Below are positions 1,976 to 15,072 of a stretch of 15,072 bases of DNA, in pieces; the stretch's first letter is position 1, and each line of letters starts with the position of its first letter. The notes beneath the pieces were generated by a model that was not told the origin of the DNA, did not search any database, and saw only the letters and a list, made by a program, of their open reading frames with translations. The stretch covers positions 1-15,072 of the forward strand of contig JAGCGE010000236.1 of the NCBI GenBank assembly GCA_017649745.1, given 5' to 3'. A program made the position numbers and the translations under genes. The stretch comes from Clostridiales bacterium (GTDB taxonomy: Bacteria; Bacillota_A; Clostridia; Saccharofermentanales; Saccharofermentanaceae).

Positions 1976-2008
1976 ACTGTTCCTTGATCATCAGGGAACA
2001 GTTTTTTT
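1976..2008 (+). terminator. Intrinsic terminator of the DUF4190-type gene
   Basis: ACTGTTCC (1976-1983) pairs perfectly with GGAACAGT (1995-2002). The stem can extend inward by a G-U and two more pairs to a loop of about five bases. Seven T follow at 2002-2008. It begins 22 bases after the stop codon. Confidence 0.93.
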
Positions 2009-2049
2009 GTGCCACAAAAATCACATAGTATTAAAAGGGAATAATGGTA

Positions 2050-2082
2050 TCATATACCTACATTGTTTTGGGAGGTATATGA
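2050..2082 (+). promoter_or_regulatory. Inverted repeat overlapping the ribosome binding site of the LRR/DUF4214 gene
   Basis: TCATATACCT (2050-2059) is the exact reverse complement of AGGTATATGA (2073-2082), giving a perfect 10-bp stem with a 13-base loop. The 3' arm contains the AGG half of the GGGAGG ribosome binding site (2070-2075) and ends three bases before the chosen start codon at 2085. The upstream bases GGTAT (2046-2050) can instead pair with ATACC (2054-2058), which would free the ribosome binding site. As RNA this could be a switch on translation; as DNA it could be an operator. The base pairing is seen directly, the function is inferred. Confidence 0.5.
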
Positions 2083-2084
2083 CA

Positions 2085-4595
2085 ATGAATAAGAAAGCAA
2101 GTGCCATTTTTATGGCAGCTGCCTTTGTTTGTACTGTGTTCAATTTCGCCGGTACAGCGATAGCAGATACCAATGGTGTTGCTGTTAGTAATGAGACTTT
2201 TCCTGATCCCAATCTTTATAGTGATGTTAAAGCATTTGATGCAGATGGTAATGACATTTTGGACTGTGAAGAGCTCTCCAAAGTAACAGATCTCAAATTT
2301 GATTCTGAACACACATTATCTGATGTTAAGGGTATTGATCTTCTTACCGAGCTTAAGTCGTTGACGGTGATCGGTTCTGAAGTATCTTCATTGGATCTTA
2401 GCAACAATACTAATCTTCAGTCAGTATCTTTAGTATCAGATAAGAATCTCAGTTCTCTTGAACTTAACGAAGATATTGAGTCTTTTATCATTGCAGATTG
2501 TCCTGAGATCACATCTCTTGACCTCAAAGATAATAAGAAACTTGATCTTTTCTATTGTGCTTCTATGAATCCGACAGTGGATTTCGGTGAAGAATCTTCT
2601 CTGACAAAACTTAGTTTTGCAGATGTTCAGATCGAAGAACTCGATCTTTCGAACTTTCCTTCGCTTACAAGCTTAGGTCTTCTTAAGACGGGAGTAACTT
2701 CTATTGATCTAAGTAAGGCACCTATGCTTAATGATTGTGAGATCGACCTTACACCGATCAACTCTATTGTATTAAATGAGAACCTTAAGTCTCTTGCTTT
2801 GATAAGCACTGACCTTGAATCATTGGACATTTCATCTTGTCCTCATCTAAGCAGATTCTATAACACTAATGAGCCTGTAGAGATAAGTGATACTCCAGCG
2901 ATCGAGTCCAATACTAAGAAGAATCTCGGAAATGTAAGTTTTAAGTATTGGGGTTCTGTGCCTAATTCAGTTTTGATGACTGATATTAGCGATATTAAGG
3001 CAGCTCCATATGAAGGTGTTGAACTTAAAACAGAGATCTTTAAGGACCAAAATTTCCTTAATGCCGTAAGAGAATTCGATAAGGACAGTGATGAGTATCT
3101 TACGATCGAAGAAATCGCTGATATCAAGGAGATAACTCTTTCAGGAAACGTTACAGTAAAGGACTTTTCCGGAATAGAGTATCTTACAGAACTTAAGTCT
3201 CTTACAGGAAATAATTGTTCCATCAAGGATATCGATCTTACATGTAATGCTAAGCTTGAAACTCTTATTATTTCCAATAATGCGATCCTTGAGAGTATTA
3301 AGGTTCCTTCTTCTGTAAGTACGTTTATGATCGCGGGTTGTCCTAATGTATCAAAGCTCGACCTTAAAGATCTCGTTAATCTTGAGACATTCTATATGGA
3401 ATCTATGTCTCCTGAGATCGACTTCGGAAGCTATTCTCCTATCAAGAACTTGGCTATTGCAGATTCTTCTATCAGTAAATTAGATCTGTCAGGATTTAGG
3501 AATCTCAATATGTTGGGACTCCTTAAAACAAATGTATCTGAACTTGATCTTAGTAAAGCGCCTAATCTTACTATGGTCGAGATCGATCTTACTAAGCTTT
3601 CTTCATTGAAACTAAACAAGAAACTCGTGTCTCTCGCTCTTCTTGATACAGGACTTAAGAGTGTTGATATTTCAGAGTGCGATGAACTTATTAAGTACTT
3701 TACGACTAATGAAGCCAAAGAGTTTAAGGATAAGACGGTTGAAAGCAAGTTTTCTGATAACGAACTTGGTAGTCTCAGCGGTAAGGTCTGGGGCGAGACT
3801 CCATATAGTCTCATGACTGATATTGAGGAGATCGTTACTGAGAAAAAGGATGATGAAGGTGCAAGAAACTTCGTTAAGAGACTATACAGCAATATCCTTA
3901 ATAGAGAAGCTGATGAAGACGGTCTTAACTTCTGGACAAATGATCTTATGAATAAGAATCAGACCGGAAGAGATATCGTATTTAAGTTCTTGAGAAGTCC
4001 TGAATTTGTTGCCAAGAATTATGATAACGAAGAGTACCTTAAGATCCTTTATACCGTATTCTTTGACAGGGAACCTGACGCTGACGGACTTAAGTATTGG
4101 AAGGAGCTTCTTGATGCTAAAACGATCACTAAAGATCAGGTAGCAGAGGGATTTGTTAATTCACCTGAATGGGCTGATACATGTTCGTCCTATGGCATTA
4201 AGTCAGGCAGTAAAGTGACAAGCAGCGCTGAAGCTGATCCAACAGAACTTATTGATTCCTTTGTTGAGAGAATGTATGAGAAGGTTCTTGGCAGATCTTC
4301 AGATGAGGATGGTAAAAAGTTCTGGGCTAAAGATCTTGCTGCTAAGAGGATCACAGGTGAAAAGCTTGGAGTAGCATTCTTTACAAGTAAAGAGATGACA
4401 GACAGGAATCTTTCCGATGAGGATTATATTGATTGCCTCTATGAGACTTTCCTTGACAGAGCAGCTGATGTGGATGGAAAGAGATATTGGAGCGAATTAC
4501 TTAAGGATCATACAAGAAAGGAACTTATCTTTGGTTTTACAAGAAGTGATGAGTTTAAAGCTGACTGTGATAAAGCAGGCATACTTCCTTATTGA
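2085..4595 (+). CDS. Large secreted protein: signal peptide, two EF-loop/LRR modules, two DUF4214 modules
   Basis: An 836-residue extracellular protein of unknown function. Residues 1-27 are a signal peptide (basic MNKK, hydrophobic core, cleavage after AIA before D28). Two copies of one module follow with an exact 280-residue period: F39 and F319 begin them, EF-hand-like loops lie at 52-63 (DADGNDILDCEE) and 332-343 (DKDSDEYLTIEE), and each has about eight leucine-rich repeats of the LDLSxxxxL kind. Both loops lack the usual Gly at position 6. The C-terminal part from about 592 is DUF4214, with four half-units marked R-x-x-D-x-DG-x-x-[FY]-W at 606, 661, 736 and 791 (spacing 55, 75, 55), so it is duplicated too. 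No LPXTG, SLH or transmembrane anchor was seen. The start was chosen at 2085 because GGGAGG (2070-2075) is nine bases away, whereas the in-frame ATG at 2079 is only three. Surface adhesion or protein binding is a guess from LRR proteins in general. Confidence 0.88.
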   Translation: MNKKASAIFMAAAFVCTVFNFAGTAIADTNGVAVSNETFPDPNLYSDVKAFDADGNDILDCEELSKVTDLKFDSEHTLSDVKGIDLLTELKSLTVIGSEVSSLDLSNNTNLQSVSLVSDKNLSSLELNEDIESFIIADCPEITSLDLKDNKKLDLFYCASMNPTVDFGEESSLTKLSFADVQIEELDLSNFPSLTSLGLLKTGVTSIDLSKAPMLNDCEIDLTPINSIVLNENLKSLALISTDLESLDISSCPHLSRFYNTNEPVEISDTPAIESNTKKNLGNVSFKYWGSVPNSVLMTDISDIKAAPYEGVELKTEIFKDQNFLNAVREFDKDSDEYLTIEEIADIKEITLSGNVTVKDFSGIEYLTELKSLTGNNCSIKDIDLTCNAKLETLIISNNAILESIKVPSSVSTFMIAGCPNVSKLDLKDLVNLETFYMESMSPEIDFGSYSPIKNLAIADSSISKLDLSGFRNLNMLGLLKTNVSELDLSKAPNLTMVEIDLTKLSSLKLNKKLVSLALLDTGLKSVDISECDELIKYFTTNEAKEFKDKTVESKFSDNELGSLSGKVWGETPYSLMTDIEEIVTEKKDDEGARNFVKRLYSNILNREADEDGLNFWTNDLMNKNQTGRDIVFKFLRSPEFVAKNYDNEEYLKILYTVFFDREPDADGLKYWKELLDAKTITKDQVAEGFVNSPEWADTCSSYGIKSGSKVTSSAEADPTELIDSFVERMYEKVLGRSSDEDGKKFWAKDLAAKRITGEKLGVAFFTSKEMTDRNLSDEDYIDCLYETFLDRAADVDGKRYWSELLKDHTRKELIFGFTRSDEFKADCDKAGILPY

Positions 4596-10247: not shown

Positions 10248-11327
10248 ATGGATAATATCTACGGAAGGAAAGGAACAAAGGTTATTAATGTTGGCGGGCT
10301 TCTTATCGGTGGAGATAACCCGATAGCAGTTCAGTCTATGAATAACACGAAGACTTCTGATGTTGAAGCAACCTTGTGTCAGATCGAACAACTCAAAGAT
10401 GCAGGCTGCGACCTCACAAGAGTTGCTATTCCTGATATGGAAGCTGCAACAGCTCTTAAAGAGATAACAAGAAGATCACCTTTGCCTGTCGTAGCTGATA
10501 TCCATTTTGATTACAGACTTGCAATTGAGGCTGCTAAGAACGGAGCAGCTAAGATAAGGATCAATCCCGGAAATATTGGCGGTCAGGAAAATGTTATCAA
10601 GGTAGCATCAGTGTGTAAGGAGAGAAACATCCCAATAAGAGTAGGTGTTAATTCCGGATCTGTTGAGAAGAAACTTATAGAGAAATACGGTAAGGTATGC
10701 GCTGAAGCCATGACTGAAAGCGCGCTCTCTTCTGTTAAGATGCTCGAGGATGCTGATTTTGACGATATTATCATTAGTATCAAGTCATCAAGTCCAAGAC
10801 TTACTATTGAGACTTACAGAGCATTGTCTAAAGTTGTTGATTATCCTTTGCATGTCGGAGTTACTGAAGCGGGTACTGTAAGAGAAGGTATCGTTAAATC
10901 GTCAGTTGGTATCGGTTCACTCCTTTCTGAAGGTATTGGTGACACGATAAGGGTATCTCTAACAGGCGATCCGGTTGATGAAGTAATAGCAGGCATCAGT
11001 ATCCTTAAGGCATTAGATCTTCGCAAAGGCGGAATTACTTTTGTTTCTTGTCCTACATGCGGAAGGACGAGAGTTCCATTGATCGAACTGGCTACTGAAG
11101 TAGAGAAGAGGATCTTCAATCTTCCATATGATCTTAAAGTTGCTGTTATGGGCTGTGTAGTTAACGGTCCTGGAGAAGCAAAAGATGCTGACATCGGTCT
11201 TGCAGGTGGAATTGATGAATTCATCCTTTTTAAGAAGGGTGAGACTGTAAGACGCATCAAGGCTGAAAATGCCGTAGATGAATTTGTAGAAGAAGTTATA
11301 AAGTTGGGAGAGGCATCTAATGTCTAA
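10248..11327 (+). CDS. ispG: 4-hydroxy-3-methylbut-2-enyl diphosphate synthase (flavodoxin type, [4Fe-4S])
   Basis: Penultimate enzyme of the MEP pathway: it reduces MEcPP to HMBPP using a [4Fe-4S] cluster. The 359-residue product is the short bacterial form with a TIM barrel and a C-terminal iron-sulfur domain. The N-terminal landmark NPIAVQSMNNTKTSD and the segment VVADIHFDYRLAIEAAKNG are family-typical, as is RINPGNIG. Cluster ligands are Cys268 and Cys271 in SCPTCGR and Cys303 in GCVVNGPGEAKDADIG, with Glu310 as the fourth; the spacing matches E. coli IspG. The start was set at ATG 10248, five bases after AAGGGTGG (10235-10242) and two bases after the rseP stop. An in-frame GTG at 10239 lies inside that ribosome binding site and is unlikely. 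It overlaps polC by eight bases. In Bacillus this position is held by proS; ispG here is a clostridial arrangement. Confidence 0.97.
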   Translation: MDNIYGRKGTKVINVGGLLIGGDNPIAVQSMNNTKTSDVEATLCQIEQLKDAGCDLTRVAIPDMEAATALKEITRRSPLPVVADIHFDYRLAIEAAKNGAAKIRINPGNIGGQENVIKVASVCKERNIPIRVGVNSGSVEKKLIEKYGKVCAEAMTESALSSVKMLEDADFDDIIISIKSSSPRLTIETYRALSKVVDYPLHVGVTEAGTVREGIVKSSVGIGSLLSEGIGDTIRVSLTGDPVDEVIAGISILKALDLRKGGITFVSCPTCGRTRVPLIELATEVEKRIFNLPYDLKVAVMGCVVNGPGEAKDADIGLAGGIDEFILFKKGETVRRIKAENAVDEFVEEVIKLGEASNV

Positions 11328-14300
11328 TAAACTCGTAGATCTCTTTGACTTTCTCGATGAAGCCGAGAAGGTCCAGTTAGATTTTCTTAATATTGATAAG
11401 ATCGATTACAGAAAGAAGATCTCACGTCTTGATGTTTATCTGTCAGGCGGAGAATATCTTTCTGAAGAGAATCTTCTTGCACTCGTTTTTTATAAGGCTA
11501 AAACTGTCTTTGAGTGTGATGTAAGATTCATATTCAATAACTTTGAAGATAAGAGCCATGCTCTTAAGTGTCTTTCGGGACTTATTAAAAGCGAGTTGTC
11601 ACTTGAGAATTTCGAGTATTGTCAGCTTGCTACATCTTGCTCTTTTGAATTAGACGGATCAAAGATCGTTATTCATACTGATGAACTTAATAAAGACCTT
11701 ACAGATGTATTATTGAATGCATTTGCTAAGTCAGTCGGTGTTTTGTTCTTTAATCATACAGGCATTAAGATAAGTGATACTTCATTTGTTTTCGAACAGG
11801 CCTTTAAGAATGATTTCAGTTTCCTTCCATCAACAAAGAAAGTGGAAGTTGAGGAAGTTGATCCTGAATATGAAGCAGCAAAAGAAGCTTATCAGAAAGC
11901 TAGAGAAGAACAGCAACAAAAGCAGAGTAAAAAGTCTAAGGCTAAGGAAGAACCTGAAGATCCTGATAAGCCTGTAGATAAGAGTTCATGGCTCTACAAA
12001 TCCAATGAGCAGAAGAAACTCAATAAGAGTGAAGAAGGTTCTAAGAAGGATTTTCGTAAAGCTAATGCTGATGCATTATTTGGCAAAGTTAAAAAGGATG
12101 CTCCTTTCTATGCGATAAAGGACATCGGTATGCGTGAACCTTTAGTCAATTTTGAAGGTCGCGTTATTCTTAATGTTGATGATGATATGCGCCTTTCAAA
12201 GAGCGGAAAGTGCGTTGTTACGAACTTTACTGTAATAGATAAGACAGGTGGTATCAGTTGTCTTATGTTCATTAAGCCTGACGAAGCAGATGCTTTTGAG
12301 AAGGCTTTTAAGAAGGGCGGTTATGCTGGTTTTCAGGGAGAACCTTTTGATAACAGGGGTGAGCTTGGTGTCAAGGTCAGTGGTATCTTTGAAAAGGATC
12401 CTCCTAAGAAGAGATCTGAGAACTGTGAATATCACAGAGTAGAACTTCATGCCCATACTAAGATGAGTGCTCAGGACGCAGTTATTGTTCCTGAAGACCT
12501 CGTATCTACTGCAGCTAAATTCGGTCATAGGGCCTGTGCCGTAACAGACCACGGTGTCGTTCAGGCTTTCCCGGCTGTATTTAATAAGTCTAAGAAATTG
12601 ACTGTTGGTGACACTGATGAGAAGTTTAAATCTATCCTTGGTGTTGAGGGATACCTTGCTGATGATGGTCCTACGATCTGCTACAACCTGCCTTTTGAAA
12701 GACCTTCAAATTGTGCAGTAGGTAATCTTGTTTCTGTTGCTGTAAGGACAACCGGCGAAGATTCATGCGAAGATGTCATGACAGAGATCTGTCTTCGTAA
12801 GTATCACCTTAAGGGATATACTTCACCTAAGCCATATTCGGAAGGTGAGGATCCTCAGGCTGCACGTGATTTTTCTGAGAAGGATATCGACAGATCACTT
12901 TGGGAGGAAGGGGAGTATGAAGTTATTACTCCACCAACTAAAGTGCCTGCAGGATATAACAAAGAGGACTATGCTGAAGAGTTCTGGAGTAAGATAACAT
13001 ACGCTGACGGCAAGGAAGGATTTGTTTTCGAACATACTGGTACGGACGAGCCTGTAATCCCTGATTCTATTGAGTACGAGTTTATCTGTGAATATAAGAC
13101 TAAGTTTACCGGCGATAAGTGGGACGGTAAGTCTGAAGAACCAGTAGAGTCATATTTTAAAGCCGGTGAGATCGTTGAGTTTATCGGTGATGCATATCTT
13201 TGTGGTAACGAAGTGTTTAAGGCTTTAGACTTCCTTCGTAAGGCAGGTTATGCGATAAATATCGAAGATCACATGTACTATAGACATAAGTTCTTGCAGC
13301 CTGTTGTAAGTGTATATGACATAAGGCTTCATAAAGGACTCCCTCTTATCTTGTCTTATGACTCTCTTGAAAAGGAATGTGATGATGTAGCTAATGAAGT
13401 CATCGCTTACTTTAAAGAGGTTGAGACTGTTGATCCTTATGAGATAAATACAAAGATCGGACATTATCCTTTGGAAAAGATCAAGAGTAAGGAAGTTCCT
13501 GCTCGACATATCATTCTTTTAGCCAGAAATAACATGGGTCTTTATAACATGTATAGACTTATTTCTGACTCTCATATCAGATATTTTTACAGGCGTCCGA
13601 GAATGCCACGAAGCCTTCTTCGTTATTTTTCATCGAGTCTTATCATCGGAGCAGCATGTGAGCAAGGTGAAGTTTACAGGGCTATTTTGAACAAATATCT
13701 TGAATTAGAAAAAGACTACACGAAGACTTTTAAGTTTCTTAAGGTTGATCCGTCATTCGTAGAAATGAGTAAACTTTATGATTACTTCGAGATACAGCCT
13801 TTGACGAACAATATGTTCTTGACTAGAGAGTCAGAAGTGCCGTTTGATCGAAATGATGTAGTCAACATAAATAAACTTATAGTTGAACTTGCAGATAGCC
13901 TCAATAAGCCTTGCTGTGCTACGTGCGATGCTCACTTCCTTAACAAAGAAGATGGCATGTATCGTCAGTATCTTCTTATGGATCTTGGATTTAAGGATGC
14001 TTTGCAACAGGCTGATCTTTACTTCAGGACAACAGAAGAGATGCTTGAGGAATTCGACTATCTTGGTGAAGAAAAAGCTATTGAAGTTGTTTGTACAAAT
14101 ACGAATAAATTCGCTGATATGTGTGAGTATGGAATCAAGCCGTTCCCGGATGATTCATATCCTCCGCTTATCGCGACAGCAGCGGCTGATGTTCAGGATC
14201 TTACATGGACAAGAGCTAACAAGCTCTATAGGCACAATGGTGTTCTTAATGAACGTGTTAAGGCAAGACTTGAGAAAGAACTTAAGTCTATTATCGGTAA

Positions 14301-15072
14301 TGGTTATGCGATCATGTACTATATCGCTTACCGTCTTGTTAAAGAGTCAAATAACCAGGGTTATATCGTAGGATCAAGAGGATCTGTAGGATCTTCTCTT
14401 GTTGCTACCATGTGCGGTATCTCAGAGGTTAACCCTTTGGAAGCTCATTACAGATGTCCTGAATGTAAGTTCGTTGAATTTGCTGAACCTGGTGCATATG
14501 GTTCCGGTTTTGATATGCCTAAAAAAGCATGTCCTTGCTGCGGAACAGAGATGGTATGTGAAGGTCAGGATATTCCGTTCGAGACGTTCCTCGGATTCTA
14601 CGGAGATAAAGCTCCTGATATCGATCTTAACTTCTCGAGCCAATATCAGCCTAGAGCACATAAATATGTCGAATATCTTTTCGGTAAGACTCATACATTC
14701 CGTGCGGGAACTATCGGTGCTTATGCTGATAAGAACGCAGAAGCACTCGCTCGTAAATGTGCTGAAGAGCTTGGTCTTCCAATGACTAAGGCTCAGTATA
14801 AGTTTATGTCTGAAGGAATAATCGATGTTAAGAAAACAACCGGTCAGCATCCTGGAGGTATCGTCGTTATTCCTCAGGAGCAGGATATCTATGAGTTTAC
14901 TCCTATCCAGTATCCTGCTAATAAAGTACCGGGTGAAGGTGAAGAAGAGATCATCACTACACACTTCGACTTTAACTCTTTGCATGATACTATCTTGAAA
15001 CTCGATATTCTTGGACATGCAGATCCTACGGTTCTTCGTATGCTCCAGGATATAACAGGTATTGATGTTACA
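11320..15072 (+). CDS. polC: DNA polymerase III alpha subunit, PolC type, with degenerate exonuclease domain (3' truncated by window edge)
   Basis: Replicative polymerase of low-GC Gram-positives; 1251 codons are visible and the frame is open to the window end. Order: N-terminal domain (1-182); a charged linker (about 183-262); an OB fold (about 270-360); the PHP domain begins with HAHTKMS (377-383) and TDHG (409-412) and resumes after an insertion with RHIILLARN (729-737), ACE (779-781) and CDAH (869-872). The palm has GSRGSVGSS, a zinc knuckle (Cys1046, 1049, 1071, 1074), catalytic Asp1100 and Asp1102 in PDIDLNFSS, TTGQHPGG (1173-1180) and Asp1229 in KLDILGH. The exonuclease domain inside PHP (about 467-700) is recognisable but has lost most catalytic residues (see findings). 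Roughly 400 C-terminal residues (fingers, duplex binding) lie outside. GGGAGAGG (11306-11313) is six bases before ATG, inside ispG, with which it overlaps by eight bases. Confidence 0.96.
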   Translation, partial: MSNKLVDLFDFLDEAEKVQLDFLNIDKIDYRKKISRLDVYLSGGEYLSEENLLALVFYKAKTVFECDVRFIFNNFEDKSHALKCLSGLIKSELSLENFEYCQLATSCSFELDGSKIVIHTDELNKDLTDVLLNAFAKSVGVLFFNHTGIKISDTSFVFEQAFKNDFSFLPSTKKVEVEEVDPEYEAAKEAYQKAREEQQQKQSKKSKAKEEPEDPDKPVDKSSWLYKSNEQKKLNKSEEGSKKDFRKANADALFGKVKKDAPFYAIKDIGMREPLVNFEGRVILNVDDDMRLSKSGKCVVTNFTVIDKTGGISCLMFIKPDEADAFEKAFKKGGYAGFQGEPFDNRGELGVKVSGIFEKDPPKKRSENCEYHRVELHAHTKMSAQDAVIVPEDLVSTAAKFGHRACAVTDHGVVQAFPAVFNKSKKLTVGDTDEKFKSILGVEGYLADDGPTICYNLPFERPSNCAVGNLVSVAVRTTGEDSCEDVMTEICLRKYHLKGYTSPKPYSEGEDPQAARDFSEKDIDRSLWEEGEYEVITPPTKVPAGYNKEDYAEEFWSKITYADGKEGFVFEHTGTDEPVIPDSIEYEFICEYKTKFTGDKWDGKSEEPVESYFKAGEIVEFIGDAYLCGNEVFKALDFLRKAGYAINIEDHMYYRHKFLQPVVSVYDIRLHKGLPLILSYDSLEKECDDVANEVIAYFKEVETVDPYEINTKIGHYPLEKIKSKEVPARHIILLARNNMGLYNMYRLISDSHIRYFYRRPRMPRSLLRYFSSSLIIGAACEQGEVYRAILNKYLELEKDYTKTFKFLKVDPSFVEMSKLYDYFEIQPLTNNMFLTRESEVPFDRNDVVNINKLIVELADSLNKPCCATCDAHFLNKEDGMYRQYLLMDLGFKDALQQADLYFRTTEEMLEEFDYLGEEKAIEVVCTNTNKFADMCEYGIKPFPDDSYPPLIATAAADVQDLTWTRANKLYRHNGVLNERVKARLEKELKSIIGNGYAIMYYIAYRLVKESNNQGYIVGSRGSVGSSLVATMCGISEVNPLEAHYRCPECKFVEFAEPGAYGSGFDMPKKACPCCGTEMVCEGQDIPFETFLGFYGDKAPDIDLNFSSQYQPRAHKYVEYLFGKTHTFRAGTIGAYADKNAEALARKCAEELGLPMTKAQYKFMSEGIIDVKKTTGQHPGGIVVIPQEQDIYEFTPIQYPANKVPGEGEEEIITTHFDFNSLHDTILKLDILGHADPTVLRMLQDITGIDVT

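Follow-up and report, generated by a model that had tools for sequence, protein, structure and literature searches.

Proofreading by replicative polymerases is regarded as near indispensable. According to a 2026 survey, the PolC + DnaE1 systems of Clostridia mostly have three active proofreaders, and where a proofreader of a DNA polymerase III (Pol III) alpha subunit has been inactivated it is the PHP domain, not the DnaQ-like exonuclease (PMC12926913). The PolC + DnaE1 system is termed experimentally uncharacterized in another paper, which also counts 6% of PolCs as having no Exo insertion; these are reported only from Clostridia and Negativicutes, besides one extra PolC copy in Thermotogae (PMC3919608). 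Here we describe the polC gene at the end of a 15,072-nucleotide contig (JAGCGE010000236.1, assembly GCA_017649745.1) of a Clostridiales bacterium of the Saccharofermentanaceae, the whole of which is called the window. The gene (11320..15072; all features below are on the + strand) is an open reading frame (ORF) of which 1251 amino acids are visible, its 3' end being cut by the window end. The clade to which it belongs matches neither of the PolC classes described in those texts – the exonuclease domain is there, and it is conserved, with its catalytic residues gone. No description of a degenerate PolC exonuclease was found in the open-licence PMC literature, with supplements outside the search.

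The window PolC shares with the canonical clostridial PolC its domain order, its nine-ligand PHP metal site and its polymerase motifs, and relatives share the clamp motif as well. It differs from it in the loss of the DEDDh site at five positions and in an extra insert within the exonuclease domain. Like the PolCs without an Exo insertion (PMC3919608), it has no working DEDDh site, occurs in Clostridia and coexists with DnaE, but here the domain has been retained and is conserved. The profile-based domain calls of that survey could have scored degenerate domains as lacking. A DnaQ-like domain kept without catalytic residues is also described for PolB2 and for PolA2/APEX, in the latter with a new binding motif; these belong to other families with suggested repair roles (PMC12926913), whereas the window PolC is a replicative subunit of the C family.

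The dead DnaQ/DEDDh domain spans residues 462–712 approximately (12703..13455) and sits inside the split PHP domain, as is usual for PolC-type Pol III alpha. Relative to PolCs that keep the site (exo-intact, as opposed to exo-dead), every one of the five DEDDh positions is changed: D>A474, E>R476, D>A635, H>D681 and D>E686. Motif I (12736..12756) aligns as VAVRTTG, with Ala474 and Arg476 in the positions of Asp and Glu. Motif II (13204..13224) reads GNEVFKA, with Ala635 in the Asp column in both MAFFT and hhalign. In the motif III region (residues 680–686, 13357..13377), Asp681 aligns with the His and Glu686 with the Asp; the two programs concur on these columns, with the His column shifting in larger MAFFT sets. 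A profile comparison with PF00929, suggested in the initial annotation as a check on its reading of a dead exonuclease, gave no match to the whole protein at E ≤ 1, nor to the domain alone at E ≤ 10, where the HMMER filters discard most matches above 0.1. In a phmmer alignment, A474 and R476 fall on an Ala-Val-Ala in 9qpc, the structure of Enterococcus faecium PolC (PMC12592400). This is taken to be the engineered D431A+E433A change, made to abolish exonuclease activity; the mutant is reported to keep robust polymerase activity (PMC12592400).

A protein search gave 4107 matches, of which the best 120 were listed. None of the first 112 rows of this set (the window and P0001–P0111) keeps DEDDh, whereas seven of the next nine rows in the same alignment (P0112–P0120) do; of the remaining two, P0116 is partial and P0112 is degraded as well. 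A difference of this size cannot reasonably be put down to chance or error. A genome scan across bacteria retained 80 of 109 PolC loci, and clade counts given below refer to 72 exo-dead rows including the window, with L070, L078 (partial) and L032 (long branch) left out. DEDDh is complete in none of these 72. In a tree of the polymerase part, which omits rows under 250 residues, a branch with 98/91 support separates the clade (69 rows) from two otherwise degraded and 12 intact rows. Most of the genomes compared are metagenome-assembled genomes (MAGs) and possibly incomplete; the strains KHP2, YRB3002, AB4001 and YAD3003 are also among the clade loci. Judged from sequence, an exo-dead PolC is a trait of this group of gut and rumen Clostridia. 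That the gene is instead a pseudogene, a sequencing error or a binning artefact is refuted and retains practically no probability: the same state is found in 71 other loci from separate genome records, four of them from strains and not MAGs; the frame is open to the window end and under purifying selection; and nothing in favour of an artefact was found for the window.

The initial annotation had thus been right that the exonuclease is dead and that polC is no pseudogene here; relatives, which it proposed to consult, share the loss. Its ORF, numbering and motifs were all confirmed (VAVRTTG at 473–479, EFIGDA at 620–625, GNEVFK at 629–634 and LEKECDDV at 683–690). For the motif II Asp it had offered Lys634 or Ala635, and both alignment programs rule out the former. 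Its placement of motif III did not hold: the His it had put at Glu684 belongs at Asp681, and a retained Asp at 689 is ruled out, being three residues off the alignment and present in only 6 of the 72 clade rows.

The same annotation expected such a polymerase to be unusual. Within its own order it is not – among 86 complete PolCs whose residues were read, 52 were exo-dead. They come from 138 sampled genomes of the order to which strain KHP2 belongs. A strong PolC match was obtained in 111 of these genomes; it was continuous in 44, partial in 13 and, in the other 54, broken within the exonuclease region of a frame of at least 1400 amino acids. All 44 continuous PolCs were read, giving 34 intact and 10 dead, and the 42 interrupted ones read were all dead. 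A second protein search, begun from a differently degraded locus (L074), recovered further exo-dead PolCs. Four PolCs of 1420–1423 amino acids (L158–L161, from G089, G111, G126 and G103), with the distance between PHP ligands reduced to 180–185 amino acids, form a further exo-dead lineage, and L184 and L187 are both exo-intact.

A tree of 109 PolC rows (60 dead, 49 intact) requires at least 10 changes of state, at least 7 of them forced by well-supported branches, and when rooted has 11 maximal dead clades; its rows were hand-picked and not random, and since it was built quickly and contains several long branches, the number of changes is uncertain. It supersedes an earlier tree (34 dead among 109 rows, 7 changes) that left out P0116 and P0217–P0230. 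The changes are read as separate losses of DEDDh and not as reversals, because so many catalytic residues are gone that reversal is unlikely.

The exonuclease domain of the window clade has not simply eroded. The initial annotation held that its fold survives, and the DnaQ fold was recovered in a structure model built from exo-dead sequences only; this call rests on superposition with VIA-align and not on the Foldseek table, in which DEDDh-type exonucleases are among the rows listed with a large root-mean-square deviation owing to the insert. Over 149 locus pairs, the median dN/dS (omega) was lowest in the polymerase part (0.031), followed by PHP (0.047) and the dead domain (0.066); the pairs lack independence, and saturation of dS brought some PHP values to zero. 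Purifying selection on the dead domain argues against decay.

The insert in this domain is specific to the clade (residues 497–605, 12808..13134, limits approximate): clade rows have it, and the five non-clade rows of the alignment (P0112, P0113, P0114, P0117 and P0118) lack it. From E443 to H730 there are 287 amino acids in the window, compared to 224–238 in exo-intact rows, with one at 267 and with L184 and L187 left out of the range. Within the insert is a motif, E-x-E-x4-A-x2-F-x3-D-I-D-x-S-L-W (residues 508–528, 12841..12903), in which E508, E510, A515, D522 and D524 are found in all 72 clade rows, F518 in 71, I523 and W528 in 70, L527 in 69 and S526 in 67. The catalytic columns of the same rows are variable, with Asp474 in 3, Glu476 in 13 and Glu686 in just 16. 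Of the initial annotation's "decayed or repurposed", only the second term stands: the purifying selection, the new invariant motif and the modelled DnaQ fold all suggest a domain that was repurposed. The insert probably binds something.

It is very improbable that the domain still cuts DNA through other residues. Such residues might be the acidic ones that are invariant in the insert and the domain (E508, E510, D522, D524 and E649), but most of those in the insert fall where the model has low confidence, with blocks at 51–64 in pLDDT (predicted local distance difference test), no nuclease motif was recognised in the insert, and there was no significant Pfam match. A role for the dead exonuclease as a substitute for the clamp motif was ruled out, as Qxx[LIM]F is found at the PolC C-terminus in 21 of the 22 clade loci listed. 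The DxSLW of the insert is faintly like a clamp motif, without the Gln.

The PHP site is a second candidate proofreader within PolC, which the initial annotation had overlooked. Its first part (12430..12687) matches Pfam PF02811 and, in a nine-residue alignment, carries the ligands H377, H379, D386, H411 and E443; the second part (13495..13959) carries H730, C780, D870 and H872 in the alignment. All nine metal ligands (HHDHEH[C/H]DH) are therefore complete in the window PolC, as they are in each of the 60 exo-dead rows of the 109-row tree. The PHP exonuclease of Mycobacterium tuberculosis DnaE1 is reported to proofread (PMC5636811), and its presumed proofreading site has the same nine ligands; the activity reported there belongs to a DnaE1 and not a PolC, and for the window PolC it is predicted. 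The initial annotation's description of a polymerase without its own proofreading is thus not established.

The explanation we favour, with some confidence, is that proofreading would rest on PHP, in PolC and/or DnaE, and that the dead exonuclease has become a structural or partner-binding module. The pair of PolC and DnaE1 would normally have three proofreading sites, of which the DEDDh site would be dispensable; it could be lost because PHP is intact in both polymerases. Catalysis by the inserted exonuclease would have been lost before the clade radiated, and it would be the PHP metal centre, in PolC and/or DnaE, that removes mismatched 3' ends. The dead domain may persist since PolC requires its structure, and the insert motif would bind a partner or fasten the domain onto the polymerase. 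We infer the function of PHP, the binding partner and the way in which work is shared with DnaE.

Several points weigh against this explanation. We know of no demonstrated PHP proofreading in any PolC, and 48 of the 49 exo-intact rows of the 109-row tree likewise keep a complete PHP site. Complementarity between the two sites was tested within the order and was not significant, because almost all rows have an intact PHP. What supports it is a single reverse case, L176 (G040), in which DEDDh is intact and the PHP site is destroyed, reduced to HKDRELLNH, together with a pattern in Bacilli given in PMC12926913. In addition, PolC is seemingly absent from some genomes of the order, so that DnaE may be the main replicase, and free DnaQ-like exonucleases in some exo-dead genomes could act in trans.

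Companion proteins were compared in 39 genomes, 34 exo-dead and 5 exo-intact. A DnaE subunit with nine of nine PHP ligands was found in every one, and is taken as DnaE1, as reported for Clostridia (PMC12926913). In the order sample, 27 of the 138 genomes had no strong PolC match, and 15 of the 20 that were re-searched (G056, G061, G064, G067, G070, G076, G078, G081, G087, G090, G098, G101, G107, G109 and G115) had DnaE and no PolC match. PolC was possibly lost in these, though the genomes may be incomplete. Such findings, with the limited role of clostridial PolC raised in PMC3919608, would fit a demoted PolC: DnaE with its intact PHP would copy the bulk of the chromosome, and the limited role left to PolC would make proofreading there unprofitable. 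We consider this unlikely, if deserving of attention, as polC lies in a housekeeping gene cluster, its palm motifs are kept and the strongest constraint falls on its polymerase part, the clamp motif is retained in nearly all the clade loci listed, and the genomes without a PolC match are of uncertain completeness.

An intact second PolC, which the initial annotation had named as grounds for refutation, was looked for in the relatives: one of the 34 exo-dead clade genomes (G005) has an extra exo-intact PolC, L081, from a distant lineage, with one changed PHP ligand. It is a contaminant or an acquired gene, and we would guess MAG contamination from its branch length of 2.63. One of the 34 (G019) has a second PolC that is likewise exo-dead; such a pair is L032 and L054 in strain AB4001, the former of 1265 amino acids and very diverged. 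In L035 (G021) the polC frame stops at 1228 amino acids with an in-frame TAA ahead of the remaining gene, which is either an error or a real truncation.

A protein outside PolC matching PF00929 at more than 100 bits was found in 16 of the 34 exo-dead and 2 of the 5 exo-intact genomes. Fourteen of the 16 were read (all but G005 and G015), and 12 are DEDDh proteins of 218–259 amino acids with a C-terminal zinc-ribbon pattern; both from exo-intact genomes also read as DEDDh with this pattern, and those of G007 (399 amino acids) and G033 (292 amino acids) have no such pattern. Pfam confirmed the zinc ribbon in one. Service to PolC in trans, in the manner of epsilon with Escherichia coli DnaE, would suit these proteins in the exo-dead genomes, but they occur in exo-intact genomes too, and none above 100 bits was found in the nearest relatives of the window (G001–G003) or in KHP2, AB4001 and YAD3003; we rate this explanation as doubtful at best. 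At E ≤ 0.01, the PF00929 matches in those six genomes were one frame of ca. 340 amino acids each, plus one of 463 amino acids in G003. By length, the ca. 340-amino-acid frame is present in 38 of the 39 genomes (not G038), with the motif FDMEWNQ read in 6. Free DnaQ-like exonucleases with a C-terminal zinc ribbon of topoisomerase type (L092 and similar) are patchy in the order. Loss of mismatch repair as a companion to the dead exonuclease was ruled out, with MutS matches in 39 of 39 genomes, 38 of them above the cut-off.

A broader form of the explanation based on PHP is put forward tentatively, as something we would not quite expect to hold in full: the order may have switched PolC from DnaQ-type to PHP-type proofreading at least 7 times, probably 10–11, and in reverse once, and the insert of the window clade would have rebuilt its exonuclease as a replisome binding module. 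By sequence, the window clade and several other branches of the order are an exception to the rule, as given in PMC12926913, that PHP and not DnaQ is inactivated. Relatives with and without DEDDh form natural pairs for testing PHP proofreading in PolC, and the same pairs bear on which polymerase is the chromosomal replicase when PolC is paired with DnaE1.

In other respects the window gene is an unremarkable polC from a clostridium resembling Saccharofermentans. The PolC models NF001688 and TIGR01405 are its top NCBIfam matches; the piece in the window scores 820.8 bits against the NF001688 curated cut-off of 873, the gene being truncated by the window end, and PolC of the relatives exceeds this cut-off in 39 of 39 genomes. 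It matches PolC in the PDB at E 3.1e-175, with 9qpc and Geobacillus kaustophilus PolC (3f2b) the closest solved structures. Pfam detects PHP and DNA_pol3_alpha. The palm motifs GSRGSVGSS, PDIDLNFS (from residue 1099, 14614..14637, intact by motif reading) and KLDILGH are all kept.

Upstream of polC are, in order, rpsB, tsf, pyrH, frr, uppS, cdsA, dxr, rseP and ispG, named by eye; Pfam agrees with the S2, uppS, cdsA and rseP families. Between tsf and pyrH is a protein of 862 amino acids (2007–4595) in which Pfam finds four DUF4214 stretches and, weakly, leucine-rich repeats. Upstream of it, a protein of 139 amino acids (1534–1953) gave no match in the Pfam search and is membrane-like by eye.
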